A stretch of DNA of 64,000 nucleotides from positions 177,706-241,705 of the forward strand of contig RXJR01000003.1 in the NCBI GenBank assembly GCA_003963305.1, given 5' to 3'. Source of the stretch: Candidatus Melainabacteria bacterium. GTDB lineage: Bacteria > Cyanobacteriota > Vampirovibrionia > Obscuribacterales > Obscuribacteraceae. Each line of letters opens with the position of its first letter. Position 1 is the stretch's first letter. The translations under genes and the position numbers were made by a program. Of the stretch, positions 9,324-64,000 are shown piece after piece. The notes under the pieces are model-generated. The model was not told the origin of the DNA. It made no database searches and saw only the letters and a program-made list of their open reading frames with translations.

Positions 9324-10613
9324 GTGGCAGATACCAGTCTAAACGATTCAGCGTGGCGAAGAGTTTGTCAGGACAGCTCGCTGATGAGCGATATCAATAC
9401 CAACGGTTATGCTTACATCACGGCTAAATCCTTGAAGTCGATTGGGCAGCGTGAACCGCGTCTGATGGCTAAACTCGACAGCCTATCGGATAGACCCAAG
9501 GTCTTTGAGGAATTCCAATTAAATATCTTGCCTTCTGAGCGCGGCACTTATGTTGTGTTCAAGGATCCGAACAATCGAAGTTATTTTACGTTGCCTTCTC
9601 AGGTGCAGACGGCGCCTCCTGAACAACACATCTCACGAGTTGAGTTGGAGTTGTTTGATTCGATACCGAAAACATCTGCTTACAGTGAGTTTCAAGCGAT
9701 AGATGTGGCGCATCTATCCGGCTTGTTGCAGTCTTTCTGTAATGAAGGCGAACTGCAGTTAACCACTAGAGGCCGAATGAGTTCTGGTGAGATTGATTTG
9801 TGGCTTCCCCAGATCGAACATCTGGTAAAGATCCGCAACGCGCAAATTGAAATTGATTCGGCATACGAGGCACATACTGCTATTCCATTGATTGAGGCTA
9901 AGACTGGTTTCCGTGCGGACTTTAACGTGCGTCAATTGCAATATCCGTACCTCTACTTATCATCTCTATCAAGCAAAAGAGTGGTGCCGATTTTATTGGC
10001 TTATTCAAACGGACAGTATCAGTTGTCTGAATTCAGAATTGGCAAGCAATTCGGTGAACTCGAGATGATCCGGCAACACTACTATGTAATCAACGAACCA
10101 TCAGTGGTGAGTGTTAATCTTGAGCAGTTGATGAGCGATGTTCCGGCTGAGGCTGAACCGACGGACATTCCGCTGCCTCAGGCAAATGATCTCAATAAAG
10201 TTATAGACGTGATTTGTCTTGTTGAGCAGGGCTTATCTGAGCTGCCTGAGTTAACGGAGATGTTGGGCGTTGTAGAAAGACAAGCCTATTACTATGGTGA
10301 TGCGGCAAAATATTTAGGATATCTCTCTGGCAAGAGAATTATTACAAGCGATGGCGTCTCGCTTGCCCATGAGAGATCACGTTTGGGACGTGTGCTCATG
10401 CTGCTAAAGCGGATGTTGGCTCGCCCCGTTTTGCGCGAGAGCATTATTTATTTGGCGTCCAGGGGATTTTCAATTGATGCTGTAGAGTCTAATGATCTGG
10501 CTGGAATTATCAAGTCTTATCGTGCAGATGTCACTGGCGATACAGTGGTCCGGCGCGCCTCTACATTGAAAAATTGGCTTCGCTGGTTGTTGACTTGTTG
10601 CGCCTTTGAGTAA
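9324..10613 (+). CDS. Probable type II restriction endonuclease (PD-(D/E)XK fold) partner of the Dam-type methylase
   Basis: Starts at GTG 9324; 429 residues. The sequence follows a restriction-enzyme family that I recall as usually adjacent to Dam-type methylases (tentatively DUF6996/DUF6997). N-terminal blocks are YITAKSLKSIGQREPRLMAK and LNILPSERGTYVVF; then TTRGRMSSGEIDLW (~147-160). The likely active site is IEIDSAYE (Asp 178) followed by IPLIEAKTGF (Glu 191, Lys 193), a D-x(n)-E-x-K arrangement, with RQLQYPYLYL after it. The last ~150 residues look like winged-helix DNA binding (LNKVIDVICLVEQGLSELPE, AKYLGYLSGKRIITSDG). It would cleave unmodified sites in the cell's DNA-entry pathway. 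The family call is from memory of sequence patterns and needs a search. Confidence 0.65.
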   Translation: MADTSLNDSAWRRVCQDSSLMSDINTNGYAYITAKSLKSIGQREPRLMAKLDSLSDRPKVFEEFQLNILPSERGTYVVFKDPNNRSYFTLPSQVQTAPPEQHISRVELELFDSIPKTSAYSEFQAIDVAHLSGLLQSFCNEGELQLTTRGRMSSGEIDLWLPQIEHLVKIRNAQIEIDSAYEAHTAIPLIEAKTGFRADFNVRQLQYPYLYLSSLSSKRVVPILLAYSNGQYQLSEFRIGKQFGELEMIRQHYYVINEPSVVSVNLEQLMSDVPAEAEPTDIPLPQANDLNKVIDVICLVEQGLSELPELTEMLGVVERQAYYYGDAAKYLGYLSGKRIITSDGVSLAHERSRLGRVLMLLKRMLARPVLRESIIYLASRGFSIDAVESNDLAGIIKSYRADVTGDTVVRRASTLKNWLRWLLTCCAFE

Positions 10614-10655: not shown

Positions 10656-10739
<84 letters not shown>

Positions 10740-10745
<6 letters not shown>

Positions 10746-11729
10746 CTGCTGCTGCTGCTGCTCTTGTTGTTCCTGTTGCTCTTGCTCGGCTTGTTGCTCT
10801 TTGGTATCAAGTCTGGTGCCAGCATAGCAAGGTAAATTCAGCGCTCCAGTTCGTTCGGCAGCCAGTTCGAGAGGAATTGACAATAATTCTTCGGAGTGAA
10901 CAGCAACTTCCATCTGTTCTTCGCCTTTGCCTTTATAAATACCCTTGTTCGGCGGAACATCCTGATAGTTTCTTCCAATCGCGACCTTGACGAAGTTCTC
11001 GCCGGCGACGCAATTGTTAGTGGGATCGACTCCTACCCATCCCATCGAAGGAAAATAGATTTCGACCCAGGCGTGCGTCTGGGAATAACCTCGCAGGCGC
11101 TGTCTGTCAGGATGCAGATAGCCGCTCACATAGCGCGCTGGAATATTGAGAGCGCGCGCCAATCCAATCATCAGGTGTGTGAAGTCCTGACAAACGCCGC
11201 GACCGTGTGCAAGTATTTCGGTTATTGAACTTGAGGCATTAGTAACACTTTTCTGGTATGTGAATTTCTCATCTATCAGTTTCAGCAAAGAAGTGACGAC
11301 TGCACCGAGCTTTACGGGCGATCGCGAATTTGCTTTAGGAATGGCTGATTCTGCCAGCTCCCGCAGTTGCGGTGAATCTATAATCTTTCCGCCGAACAAG
11401 AGAAAATCGCACAAGGTGTAATCATAATTCGCATCGCGAATCCAGATGTCTGGAAAATGCTCCAGGCGAATTGGGCGCGCATCGGTTTGTACGATACTGG
11501 TAGCAATGATTTGAATTTGATTGTGCAGCGCGTTGATTGAGAAAGCGTGAACGGTGTTGCCCAGCCAATCGAAATAACTTTTCACTTGAGTCGCGGGACC
11601 GATATCCAGTCCAAAGGAAAGGCGGTGTTGATACTGCTCTTGCAGCGGCGCCATGCGCAGCTCCATAACGGATTCATTGATGTAGTCCGAGTAGTGCAAG
11701 TCAGTTGTGTGAGTTATTGATAAGAGCAT
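10740..11729 (-). CDS. Transglutaminase-like protein of the ATP-grasp/alpha-E cluster
   Basis: A 329-residue cytosolic protein. Residues ~1-80 are the bacterial transglutaminase N-terminal domain (MLLSITHTTDLHYSDYINES). The papain-like core has the full triad: Cys in RGVCQDFTHLMIGLARAL, His in QTHAWVEIYFP, and Asp in WVGVDPTNN. In this conserved cluster it works with the permuted ATP-grasp and alpha-E proteins encoded just upstream; a role in peptide-bond formation or cleavage has been proposed for such clusters, but the substrate is unknown. The C-terminus is a Gln/Glu-rich tail (EQQAEQEQQEQQ..) ending in the CAATAG array, so tail length may vary by slippage. Confidence 0.92.
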
Positions 11730-21000: not shown

Positions 21001-22339
21001 CATCCCGACTGGTGCTCACGCATCGCTGGGCGGACAATCTACGTCAAATGAATACTATTCTGCTCCGAGCGGACAGACAGCATCAAGTGAGTACTATGCC
21101 GCACCAGCTGTAGCTGGAAACGTGGTTGGTTCCGCTCAGGCTAATGCCTACGCCGTTGACTATTCGAGTCAGTCAACAAGCAGCGCTCAAAATTCATACG
21201 CTGTTGATTATTCGAATCAGTCTAACAATGCTGCTTCGAGCTCTTACGTGGTCGATAATTCTTCGCAATCATCGGCGAACGTACAGCAGGGTACCCCAGT
21301 GTTTGCTTCGGTCTTGCCATCATCAACTCCGATTGACTACAGCGCTCCCGCTCAAACAATTACTGGTGGCACACAACCTGCAAGCAACGCCGAGTACTAC
21401 TCCGCTCAGGCAAACCCAGCACCGTCGATGGTATCGAGCACAAGCTCATATGCTGCCGATTACTCATCTTCGAATTCAGCACAAGCTCAATACGTTGCCG
21501 ATTACTCGTCTTCGAATTCGGCACAAGCTCAATACGTTGCACAGCAGAATTCGTCTTCTGAATATGCTCAGACTACCCAGTATGCGCCGGTTCAGGGACA
21601 GCCAAGCAGCTTCATCCAGCCAGGCGCTCCCGCCAATGAGTACTATGCTGCTCCTTCACAGTCTGCACCGCTGGTAGCTGCTCTGATTACTCCTAACCAG
21701 CCGATCGCAATCGACGCCGGTTCCGTACAAGCTCAACAAGCTTACTCTAGCCCGGTCCAATACTACCTGGCGAATGCAAGTGCACACGCAGAGAGCCGCT
21801 CTGTTGAGAACATTGCACCAGTTGAACGCACTCCAGTGCAGCAATCTTCTGATGTAGTCTATGCACGCTCCAACAGTGAAGCGTATACAACAGTTGCTCC
21901 ATACCAACATGTTGAGGGCACAGAGTCGCGAGCTGTAAGCTTTGCACCTGTAACTGCGCACAACGTTCAGCATGGACCGCAAACAGTGACTCAATCGGAG
22001 CAGTCCGAAGCGTATCTCTCCCAGCAGCAAGTGCACAGCAAGGTGCAGCAAGCTAATGGATTGATCAGCCGTATGAACACGATTCTGGCTGGATTCGATG
22101 CACCGCATGCAGTTTCTAGCAGCAACGCCACTACTCCAGCTGCCAACACCGCCGGCAATGCTAAAGTCGTTGCTAGAGCTGAAAACGCAGAGATGAATGC
22201 TCAGCCTGTTGCACAACAGCCACAAGCTAAGAAGTCCCTGCATGACCTGCTCCCAGTGCAGAGAAAAGCTAAAACTCCTCCGAAAGAAGAGATGGTAGTT
22301 ACTCCACCACCAATGTCTAACTCTTGGTTCGATGCATAA
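18002..22339 (+). CDS. Very large polytopic membrane protein with long repetitive tail, paralogue 2
   Basis: ATG 18002 has GAGG seven bases upstream and opens a signal peptide (TTALAVSLFAGAAANA). The product is ~1445 residues. The membrane part (~190-480) repeats the plan of the upstream gene: NIFVPMGILLLLPGALLTQV, MRSVIAIFLIPGTYLVVNYS, FQMAYLYYLWFVGPVAAGLW, FWSLFWNTAILLIACF. A Gly-rich hinge (~490-530) follows, then about 900 residues of Ala/Ser/Tyr/Val-rich sequence. Within it are repeats such as YAVDYSSQS / YAVDYSNQS / YVVDNSSQS, YAADYSSSNSAQAQ / YVADYSSSNSAQAQ, and EYYSAP / EYYAAP. The paralogue's tail is only ~120 residues. A membrane channel or anchor with a long disordered surface or periplasmic tail would fit; function unknown. 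Confidence 0.72.
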   Translation: MTPSKTFWLTTALAVSLFAGAAANASPSSGNGMNRYEISAKNQDTANSHIYPRQMGGDNNVQDQKAQVDEDFGSDLAKQGTPMLTDIIPSSSVKVKMETGAKKQAEADFPWKGKAATERLTAAAALVNQQIADKELVGKLSEPGRWVKPAQAAAQAQATNAGNAAAEVSRDQASSAIDFCAHYLHNFTVDGGNKWNLLRNNIFVPMGILLLLPGALLTQVRAIMAAGNPVLGNINPLEGIMRSVIAIFLIPGTYLVVNYSIDLSNSITFTINSEYFRLFGSDMYKDAICAEIRAFPVRGEQENRNALDLPVPAMTPLVNPGGLFAQFEGMMENKIEDPCSGLYQAPGGRADEAMSSSSVAARLGLNGSNAALTASWNILCAFQMAYLYYLWFVGPVAAGLWVWPMKQLRGALPSWVEGVITLAFWSLFWNTAILLIACFKGVGETGCVLMTALHFLATASVKHAFDFAGLVRAAGQEAANMAEKAMKSGGAGGGAGGGGGGSCGAKGGGAEGGQAPATADGIGALSSNSTAHGGNVSVASNSPVAAGGDSRGLGSNGPVDKAGLNEALAMRSLGKGEGMGAPLGSSFDDKSSTDKSLDRLAESAMIPPSEKKFDGDVFSQESQYASMFCSAEIADQLADIPMDGVYDATADLDAEAAAQSTVANELSSLKAAEASGYDAAALAAETSPPPSELTAAMLAQDAKNAEDAKLAQDQAKHAGTEMALAQAGARAQEAADARRSELESKRAEKLAESISTHMSNLSMAAAGAEHGAPLAGASGSAGENGSHGSHGAYVAALSAELLRDDVAKFDFTNSLTDIDVDSTSLASSNMSSSWVSNESLTSADLSRIEFSDIDNMDVLASSGWVDALDAVDASSVVNNSLSANVDSSIVANPSLSAPAVGNVTQYGDVTTYGGVVPSDMIDRSDRSLVNANAYNSANSYNSANAYVANDSYSAPLVTNASAVPAISGTQVDANSVVSNAVYSAQAVSGNVVAAVENYNTIPTGAHASLGGQSTSNEYYSAPSGQTASSEYYAAPAVAGNVVGSAQANAYAVDYSSQSTSSAQNSYAVDYSNQSNNAASSSYVVDNSSQSSANVQQGTPVFASVLPSSTPIDYSAPAQTITGGTQPASNAEYYSAQANPAPSMVSSTSSYAADYSSSNSAQAQYVADYSSSNSAQAQYVAQQNSSSEYAQTTQYAPVQGQPSSFIQPGAPANEYYAAPSQSAPLVAALITPNQPIAIDAGSVQAQQAYSSPVQYYLANASAHAESRSVENIAPVERTPVQQSSDVVYARSNSEAYTTVAPYQHVEGTESRAVSFAPVTAHNVQHGPQTVTQSEQSEAYLSQQQVHSKVQQANGLISRMNTILAGFDAPHAVSSSNATTPAANTAGNAKVVARAENAEMNAQPVAQQPQAKKSLHDLLPVQRKAKTPPKEEMVVTPPPMSNSWFDA

Positions 22340-22376
22340 TGGGTTTTACCTGGTTCGACACATAACTGGTTTTACC
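22325..22376. repeat. 26-bp tandem copy of gene 3' end with stop codon
   Basis: Copy 1 (22325-22350) codes W-F-D-A-stop plus TGGGTTTTACC. Copy 2 (22351-22376) reads W-F-D-T-stop plus CTGGTTTTACC, with 22 of 26 bases equal and GAT changed to the synonymous GAC. The copies abut exactly. Confidence 0.85.
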
Positions 22377-46432: not shown

Positions 46433-47029
46433 ATGATTCGACCATTAATCACCGCCTGCAGTGTGCTCGCCATCTTTTCGGCCGTAGTGGTTTCTTCGTC
46501 GCCGCCGGCTGTAGCAGCTTCTCCTCAAGCACCTACTGTTGAATCATATTCGGCGTGCGAAGAACAGATTGGTCCGCGTATTTATCAAGTCAGCAGAGTT
46601 GTCATCGACGCAGCACCGAATCAGGTGCAAGATGTTATCACCGACTACGATCACACCGATAAGGTTTTCGACAACGTCTCTAAGTGCAAAGTTGTGAAAG
46701 AGTCTGGTGATTTGAAGCATGTTGCATTCACCGTCAAGACACTTGGAAGTTTGATCACGTGTGATTACGTGCTTGAAATAAAGTCGACTCCCGGACGAAT
46801 CGAATGGAAGCGAGTCAGTGGAGCGTTTAAGGCTAACGAAGGTTTCTGGAAATTCGAACCTACCAATGGCGGACGGTCGACTCTAGTAACCTACGCGAAA
46901 TATGTGGATGGTGGTCTTCTGGCCCCTAAGTTCATCGTCAATCGCGAAATTCGTAATTCAATGCCTGTGATTATGGCTAATCTGAAAAGCACCGCTGAAC
47001 ATGACAATGCTGTAGCTGCGAAGCCCTGA
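46433..47029 (+). CDS. Exported SRPBCC (START-like) fold protein
   Basis: A 198-residue protein behind GGAG, with signal peptide (LITACSVLAIFSAVVVSSSP). The mature part is an SRPBCC/polyketide-cyclase-like hydrophobic-ligand domain: VSRVVIDAAPNQVQDVITDY, FDNVSKCKVVKESGD, RIEWKRVSGAFKANEGFWKF, LVTYAKYVDGG, and a long C-terminal helix (VNREIRNSMPVIMANLKSTA). Exported members probably bind lipids or other hydrophobic molecules. It ends AAKP-stop, and that end is repeated at least five times directly downstream. Confidence 0.82.
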   Translation: MIRPLITACSVLAIFSAVVVSSSPPAVAASPQAPTVESYSACEEQIGPRIYQVSRVVIDAAPNQVQDVITDYDHTDKVFDNVSKCKVVKESGDLKHVAFTVKTLGSLITCDYVLEIKSTPGRIEWKRVSGAFKANEGFWKFEPTNGGRSTLVTYAKYVDGGLLAPKFIVNREIRNSMPVIMANLKSTAEHDNAVAAKP

Positions 47030-47187
47030 GTTTAGCTGCGAAGCCCTGAGTTTAACTGCGAAGCCTTGAGTTAACTGCGAAGCCTTGAGTTAACTGCGAA
47101 GCCTTGAGTTAGCTGCGAACTTTGACCTACGAATCTAGAATCTTACTGCGCAATCTTGCGTTAACCGAGGCATTGAGTTTAGCCGAC
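47014..47187. repeat. Tandem array of a gene's last codons and stop
   Basis: Unit AGCTGCGAAGCCCTGAGTTT (A-A-K-P-stop plus spacer): copies at 47014-47033 and 47034-47053 are identical. Three 19-base variants AACTGCGAAGCCTTGAGTT follow at 47054, 47073 and 47092, and a shorter one at 47111. More diverged copies occur near 47143 and 47163-47180. The stop codon (TTA read in reverse) of the convergent DUF2071 gene lies inside the last copy (47179-47181). Confidence 0.92.
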
Positions 47188-47928
47188 TGGCACCACTGAC
47201 AGTGGCCACTCAATAGTGTCTATTCTTTCCGAGTAATGTAAAAGCGGCTTGCAATCCGGAAGTTCGAAACCTAGCGGTCTCGTCATGGAGTTGATTTCGA
47301 ACTCGGCTTCGGCTGGTTGGAGCGGCCAGACGTCGTGATGTATAACGCCGCGATGAAGTTGACGTGTTGAATCAGTCGTGTACAGGCAGTAACGTTCAGT
47401 CAAGAAACGATCGATCGAACCGTTGCCCGCATTGATCACATCACCTGTGGGTCTATAGGACAGGATAATTGCGGCTTCCTCGCTGGCACGTTCGCTCGTA
47501 TAGTCAACAATTCCATCTTTCTTTTCATGCATTGACATTTTCGCTCTGAAATAGGGGAGATGGTAAAACTTTCTTGCTATCAAAACTGCGATTGTATTTG
47601 AACAATCGAGGCTGAAGAAATAGACGCCTGGAATTCCATCTCGGACAACATACGTGCGTACGTTCAACTCTAAAAAGTTGGAGAGACGACTCTTTGTTTT
47701 CGGCGTATAGCGAGGATAGACGTCGTTCATCACGAACGGAACAATGCCGACCCATGCGTAACCATCGAATAAGTCGAGTTCAAGCGAATTGGGAACGAGA
47801 TCTCGAATGATTTCTGCTTTGATTGGCCAGTGGGCAAAAAGTAGCTTAGCCCAGGTCTGGCTCATCACCCAGAGGGATGTGGGCACCGGAAACGGTCGAT
47901 GCTCGACTTTTGACAATAACGGATGCAT
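47179..47928 (-). CDS. DUF2071 (YqjF-like) family protein
   Basis: A 249-residue soluble protein with AGGA eight bases before its ATG. It follows the DUF2071 pattern: WAKLLFAHWPIKAEIIRDLV, LELDLFDGYAWVGIVPFVM, LNVRTYVVRDGIPGVYFFSL, FYHLPYFRAKM, and the C-terminal block DRFLTERYCLYT. The fold is related to acetoacetate decarboxylase; biochemical function is not established. Its stop codon lies inside the repeat array belonging to the convergent gene, so its C-terminal end has probably been reset by the array. Confidence 0.86.
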   Translation of the reverse strand: MHPLLSKVEHRPFPVPTSLWVMSQTWAKLLFAHWPIKAEIIRDLVPNSLELDLFDGYAWVGIVPFVMNDVYPRYTPKTKSRLSNFLELNVRTYVVRDGIPGVYFFSLDCSNTIAVLIARKFYHLPYFRAKMSMHEKKDGIVDYTSERASEEAAIILSYRPTGDVINAGNGSIDRFLTERYCLYTTDSTRQLHRGVIHHDVWPLQPAEAEFEINSMTRPLGFELPDCKPLLHYSERIDTIEWPLSVVPVG

Positions 47929-54984: not shown

Positions 54985-55035
54985 AGAATCACTTGCTTTG
55001 ATGGATGCCGTTTATCAAGAAACACTTGCTTTGAT
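54985..55035. repeat. Copied gene end after thymidine phosphorylase
   Basis: AGAAACACTTGCTTTGAT (55018-55035), just before the stop on the minus strand, recurs as AGAATCACTTGCTTTGAT at 54985-55002, 33 bases downstream, 17 of 18 bases equal. The copy carries TGA next to the same TTC as the gene. Confidence 0.8.
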
Positions 55036-63164: not shown

Positions 63165-64000
63165 ATGAGATCGAAGAATTTCTTCCCGTCAAATACCATT
63201 TTAGCGGCGCTGCCGACGTTTACTTGCTGCTTGCTTTCGACGCAATCAGCGTTCTGTCAGGAATTGAAGCCATTGCGTCCGATGCGGAGTCCGACCACAA
63301 GTGGTGTCACTTCGTCCGAAGAGCAGTTGCGTGTGCCTCGCGTGCAATCGGCTGCTTCGATGCCATCCAAAACCGCCTCTGCAGCGAGCGCGAAGCCTGC
63401 TGCAAATGCATCGCCCCTGGAACGGGGAAAGTATTTTTCCAGACATGGTGCTTATAGCGATGCGTTCAATTTTTTCACTAAAGCTGCCGATGCTGATCCG
63501 AAAAACCCGGAGCCGTATAATCGTCGCGCCCGCGTAGAATGGCAACTTGAGAAGAACGACGAAGCCCTGGAAGACGTGCGCTATGCAATCAAGTTGAACC
63601 CTGATTATGCAGAGGCTTTTTGTACGCGAGCTCAAATACTAAATTCAATGGGCAAATACCACGATGCAATCGTCGATACCGCCCTTGCCATGGAATTGAA
63701 ACCGCGTCTTAAAGAGGCTTACACGATTCAAGCGAGTGCCTATCGCAATTTGAAGCAATATCATGAAGCCGATGAATTGATGCAGAAACTGGCAGCTATT
63801 CCTGACCCCATCTCTGCTTTCGATGAATGGTCGCCGAACATAGACTATACGCAATACATTGCCGACCTGCAGTCACGTGTTCGTCAGCACTTCCAGCCCC
63901 CGATGGGAGCCGTGTACCCGCCGATTGTCGTTCTGTTCAAGATGCATCGAAACGGTCAGGTTTCTGACGTTCGCGTTAATACTGCCGGTGTTGCCACCGC
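63165..64000 (+). CDS. Exported TPR protein with TonB-like C-terminus, cut by window edge
   Basis: ATG 63165 opens MRSKNFFPSNTILAALPTFT, a signal-type start (LPTFTCCLLSTQSAFC), and the frame stays open to the right edge (278 codons seen). After a Ser/Ala linker come at least three TPR units: YFSRHGAYSDAFNFFTKAAD, PEPYNRRARVEWQLEKNDEA, AFCTRAQILNSMGKYHDAIV. From ~250 the sequence HFQPPMGAVYPPIVVLFKMH and GQVSDVRVNTAG enters a TonB-like domain. It is 68 bases after the LQGGV-repeat gene and may be in the same transcript. TPR plus TonB-C proteins of this type occur in many copies in Vampirovibrionia as I recall; their function is unknown. Confidence 0.75.
   Translation, partial: MRSKNFFPSNTILAALPTFTCCLLSTQSAFCQELKPLRPMRSPTTSGVTSSEEQLRVPRVQSAASMPSKTASAASAKPAANASPLERGKYFSRHGAYSDAFNFFTKAADADPKNPEPYNRRARVEWQLEKNDEALEDVRYAIKLNPDYAEAFCTRAQILNSMGKYHDAIVDTALAMELKPRLKEAYTIQASAYRNLKQYHEADELMQKLAAIPDPISAFDEWSPNIDYTQYIADLQSRVRQHFQPPMGAVYPPIVVLFKMHRNGQVSDVRVNTAGVAT

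Follow-up and report, generated by a model that had tools for sequence, protein, structure and literature searches.

The MIRU elements of mycobacteria form a dispersed family whose tandem units sit at gene junctions and overlap stop codons. The tandem repeats of Borgs are described, in the available part of the source, as perfect, A-rich copies on an archaeal extrachromosomal element (PMC9879509), while the TAACTGA repeats of Beggiatoaceae and cyanobacteria are, in the available part of theirs, a fixed heptamer that, in the genome on which that study centred, mostly lies directly before start codons (PMC4679880). In a literature search that left subscription journals and preprints mostly outside its scope, we found no description in Obscuribacterales of arrays such as the one analyzed here. 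This array lies in a window, by which we mean the whole 64,000-nucleotide stretch of DNA that was analyzed, of a Candidatus Melainabacteria genome of 7.48 Mb (draft in 44 contigs, about 50% GC). It is a lineage-specific minisatellite, a kind of repeat often found downstream of genes in this bacterium.

A Tandem Array at the Junction of Two Converging Genes

The array is located between an SRPBCC-fold gene on the + strand (46433–47029; an open reading frame with the Pfam domain Polyketide_cyc2, PF10604, E = 5.6e-11), whose protein ends in NAVAAKP, and a convergent DUF2071 gene on the − strand (47179–47928; PF09844, E = 3.3e-68, at residues 24–236 of 249), and the stops of the two genes are separated by 149 nt. 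On the + strand, two identical 20-base copies at 47014–47053 (47014–47033 and 47034–47053) are followed by three identical 19-base copies at 47054–47110 (47054–47072, 47073–47091 and 47092–47110). The copies repeat GCT GCG AAG CCC TGA, which is the end of the SRPBCC gene (AAKP-stop), and that gene's own stop codon, TGA at 47027–47029, is inside the first 20-mer. The stretch 47111–47158 consists of a partial copy (to about 47119) and then of strongly decayed similarity, and the last copy, at 47159–47186, is also decayed, ends in GAGTTTAGC like the first copy and contains the TAA stop codon of the DUF2071 gene (47181–47179 on the − strand). The two 20-base and three 19-base copies, as well as the DUF2071 stop inside the last decayed copy, had been given in a preliminary description of the window and are borne out by the sequence and the copy listing. 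Of the decayed copies named there, that at 47159–47186 is genuine, with a local score of 16 that was reached by none of 2000 shuffles and none of 62,900 28-mers sampled from the window, while those at 47112–47135 and 47136–47158 are marginal, their scores being reached by 91 and 86 of 2000 shuffles, respectively.

TRF reports 47016–47119 as a repeat of period 19 with 5.4 copies and 95% matches. With up to three mismatches the array unit has five matches in the window, where 0.03 are expected from shuffles; without mismatches it has five in the 7.48-Mb genome, all at the 47014–47110 locus, and none was found in 50,697 phage records. The array is therefore a set of head-to-tail copies well above chance with a locus-specific unit, as in a minisatellite. 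A dispersed repeat family was rejected because the exact unit is present at one locus only; the array also lies outside the genome's own family of REP-like dispersed palindromes and resembles none of the other 117 non-coding arrays in the surveyed set. In SZAS-4, which belongs to the same genus, the same converging gene pair is separated by a 19-nt gap in which the array is absent, and the SRPBCC protein ends in AVASKP, one residue changed from the AVAAKP found here. The genus is represented by a third genome, G033, in which the two genes share a contig at a distance of about 900 bp; there, too, the SRPBCC gene is not followed by a visible array. These comparisons use one genome per species, and presence or absence of the array is judged against SZAS-4 only.

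Other Repeats in the Window and the Genome

Other gene-end duplications that include a stop codon are found in the same window at 2478–2572, 22325–22376 and about 54985–55035, with periods of 45, 26 and 33, respectively. A hexanucleotide array, (GCTATT)n at 10697–10747, lies between the converging genes 9384–10613 (+) and 10740–11729 (−) and enters the polyglutamine C-terminus of the latter, whose SZAS-4 counterpart has kept the QQQQQQ end and has no hexamer array. A REP-like palindrome, ATGGA[G/C/A]CGCACGCG-TCC-CGCGTGC, occurs 124 times in the source genome, 25 times in G033 and not at all in SZAS-4 or in G013, a genome of another genus, and its variants preserve the stem through paired changes. 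The Y1 transposase domain (PF01797) is present in the source genome and G033 and was not found in SZAS-4 or G013; in the source genome it is encoded at 63319–63549 of contig C24, between inverted palindrome copies (G000:C24:63080-63956). Palindrome and transposase together look like a REP/RAYT system.

Distribution of Arrays Along the Genome

Arrays were surveyed in 1.616 Mb of the source genome (1271 called genes), 0.727 Mb of SZAS-4 and 0.400 Mb of G013, with tandem duplications called by an autocorrelation score (period 8–60, overlapping periods merged) and genes called by our own hexamer model, which is not benchmarked against curated annotation. The source genome contains 118 non-coding arrays in this sample, 4% of which is the window, itself chosen for its arrays. 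Their density is highest in converging gaps (39 arrays in 213 gaps and 26.5 kb, or 1.47/kb), lower in same-strand gaps (62 in 698 gaps and 130.4 kb, 0.48/kb) and lowest in diverging gaps (11 in 242 gaps and 76.7 kb, 0.14/kb); the densities by TRF are 1.32, 0.42 and 0.18/kb in the same order. The corresponding values are 0.42, 0.27 and 0.09/kb in SZAS-4 and 0.25, 0.22 and 0.10/kb in G013. E. coli K-12 served as a yardstick: in 0.3 Mb of its genome, the same scripts found no non-coding array in 46 kb of intergenic DNA and TRF found four (0.08, 0.06 and 0.14/kb in converging, same-strand and diverging gaps, respectively). We rejected a loss of mismatch repair as the reason why arrays are more frequent here than in SZAS-4: MutS_I was found in four of four genomes searched and MutL_C in three of four, including the source genome, being missed only in the SZAS-4 genome, which is 87% complete.

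As many as 103 of the 118 non-coding arrays, that of the window among them, resemble no other in the set. A period that is a multiple of three is found in each of the 124 arrays within genes and in 55 of the 118 non-coding ones (p = 0.003); the latter is an excess that plain neutrality does not predict, and some of these arrays may lie in uncalled genes.

A stop codon is overlapped by 24 of the non-coding arrays (one of which sits at the end of contig C1) and a start codon by one; the stop listing holds 26 array-stop rows, since three arrays extend over the stops of both genes in a converging pair. The preliminary description had treated the stop codon as the object that is repeated. In an anchored duplication test of the first 0.86 Mb (score of at least 13, downstream points taken only in gaps of at least 140 nt), duplications run through 11 of 416 stops and through 12 of 192 generic points that lie some 40 nt past the stop, through none of 534 starts and through none of 416 stops followed by shuffled DNA. 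Stops are accordingly arrayed less often than generic flank positions, which argues against that view. Of the 62 arrays in same-strand gaps, 47 are closer to the stop than to the next start (p = 6e-5), and 14 lie within 0–20 nt of the stop where uniform placement gives 7.7. Together, these placement counts show that arrays do prefer 3′ flanks, with a modest surplus close to the stop, and that they are not stop-codon arrays as such. Coverage of stops by adjoining arrays is 14.6% in converging and 4.9% in same-strand gaps of at least 120 nt, a comparison not relied on because arrays themselves lengthen the gaps and so bias it.

Turnover Between Species and Protein Ends

In the sampled parts of the source genome and SZAS-4, 416 reciprocal-best orthologous pairs with at least 60% identity were identified. 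Among their 3′ flanks, in which an array between two converging genes counts for both genes, 37 carry an array in the source genome alone and 14 in SZAS-4 alone, two in both species and 363 in neither. Most arrays are thus lineage-specific; chance alone would give 1.5 shared ones. Where only the source genome has an array, its gap exceeds that of SZAS-4 in length in 31 of 37 cases and falls short of it in five. Arrays in general lack an effect on C-termini, as the same C-terminal residue is found in 39 of the 51 pairs in which one of the two species alone has an array and in 275 of the 363 in which neither has (Fisher p = 1). Three sampled arrays extend across the two stops of converging genes, and in each of them both genes keep a stop of their own; such a single duplication over both stops is seen at joined C1 coordinates 468255/468295 and at two other converging pairs. 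A repeat that crosses a stop codon need not change any protein.

Origin of the Array

We propose that the array is a minisatellite of an ordinary sort, born locally in 3′-flank DNA that tolerates it, a reading to which we give a probability of roughly 0.8. A small piece of the junction that held the final codons and the stop of the SRPBCC gene would have been tandemly duplicated several times by slippage or template-switch duplication, most simply after the split from SZAS-4, and the outer copies would have decayed afterwards. The first copy would thereby retain the upstream gene's own stop, and the last copy would retain that of the convergent gene if the duplicated block spanned both stops, which may have been only a few bases apart at the pre-array junction. 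When the array is collapsed in register, both protein ends stay unchanged, because a junction-spanning duplication would provide each gene with its own copy of a stop. Aligned to SZAS-4, the in-register collapse scores 43 and other joins up to 51; many joins score alike, and the pre-array junction is therefore a model. The array seems to leave both proteins essentially unharmed. More generally, this genome carries many independent arrays of the kind, which may be subject to fast birth and decay, and their 3′ bias would reflect tolerance, duplications being tolerated because they are located in 3′-flank DNA.

According to the preliminary description, growth of the array had probably changed the C-terminus of the DUF2071 protein. 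On this rival reading, the old stop of that gene would have been lost and the ribosome would now stop in array DNA three residues later. The protein does end in EWPLSVVPVG here and in EWPLAVV in SZAS-4, and its stop is in array-derived DNA, three residues later than in SZAS-4; that much of the claim stands, but growth of the array is doubtful as the cause. The tail beyond the conserved EW, 8 residues long in the window protein, ranges from 3 to 10 residues in 29 relatives, none of which has an array beside its DUF2071 stop (L173 has one 139 nt beyond the stop). L164 (EWAPDVVPGQ) and L165 (EWPPEVVPTG), both of another genus, end at the alignment column of the window protein with no adjoining array. 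Homologues with such an end and no array are what the preliminary description had named as evidence against its reading, although it had asked for unrelated genomes and these two belong to the same family. G033 of the same genus carries a third tail, EWPLSLISSRE, so that any of these states may be the ancestral one. As arrays elsewhere shift no C-termini either, we consider such a displacement unlikely; an alteration of the DUF2071 C-terminus by three residues relative to SZAS-4 is possible but unproven.

The surplus beside the stop in same-strand gaps and a density in converging gaps about three times that in same-strand gaps indicate that a factor beyond mere tolerance may act at 3′ ends. 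In this lineage, duplication might be actively directed to the 3′ ends of genes, and above all to head-on junctions, through a coupling to transcription termination or collision. We regard this as somewhat less likely still than a displaced C-terminus; if it were true, converging junctions would be hot spots that breed minisatellites able to shift the stops of neighbouring genes.

It is very improbable that the array serves as a set of fail-safe stops that catch ribosomes reading through the first one. The sequence TGA GTT TAG does place a second in-frame stop two codons on, and an in-frame second stop within five codons is found in six of 22 stop-covering cases and in 133 of 860 genes without an array, but this difference is not significant (p = 0.14), the periods of 20 and 19 shift the frame between copies, SZAS-4 manages the same gene pair without an array, and stops are not preferentially included in duplications over generic flank positions. 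The position between converging genes could also suit a transcription terminator or a structured RNA element. However, on neither strand does the RNA fold better than shuffles do (z = −0.21 and +0.31), no terminator-like site is present within 47000–47230, and the terminator and fold scans gave no GC-rich hairpin with a T run and a stable fold as in an intrinsic terminator, so that this function is just as improbable. An assembly artefact is the least credible explanation, for although the genome is a 44-contig draft, the copies are unequal in both length and sequence and pass gradually into decayed ones, and arrays of the same kind occur at more than 100 places.

Taken as a locally born minisatellite, the single locus is ordinary, and the genome-wide pattern is more useful. 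The tenfold gradient in density from converging to diverging gaps and the near-complete turnover between two species of the genus provide a natural data set for asking whether transcription, in addition to selection, shapes the short tandem duplications of bacteria.

Comparison with Known Tandem Repeats

The arrays described here are most like bacterial minisatellites or VNTR loci, which are used for strain typing: both consist of head-to-tail intergenic units of 10–60 bp, and in both the copies are imperfect and lineage-specific. Unlike VNTR loci, they are strongly concentrated in 3′ flanks and converging gaps, in a comparison that covered one genome per species. The window array shares with MIRU the tandem units at a gene junction that overlap a stop, but its unit occurs at one place only. 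Like the TAACTGA repeats, the arrays are intergenic direct repeats with stop-like triplets; their units differ from locus to locus and sit after stops, and the fixed heptamer placed mostly before starts, as the available part of the source has it, is thus different (PMC4679880). With the Borg repeats, as far as the available part of their description goes, they have in common an independent origin at each locus, rapid evolution and an intergenic position, whereas the arrays reported here are imperfect and belong to a bacterial genome of about 50% GC (PMC9879509).
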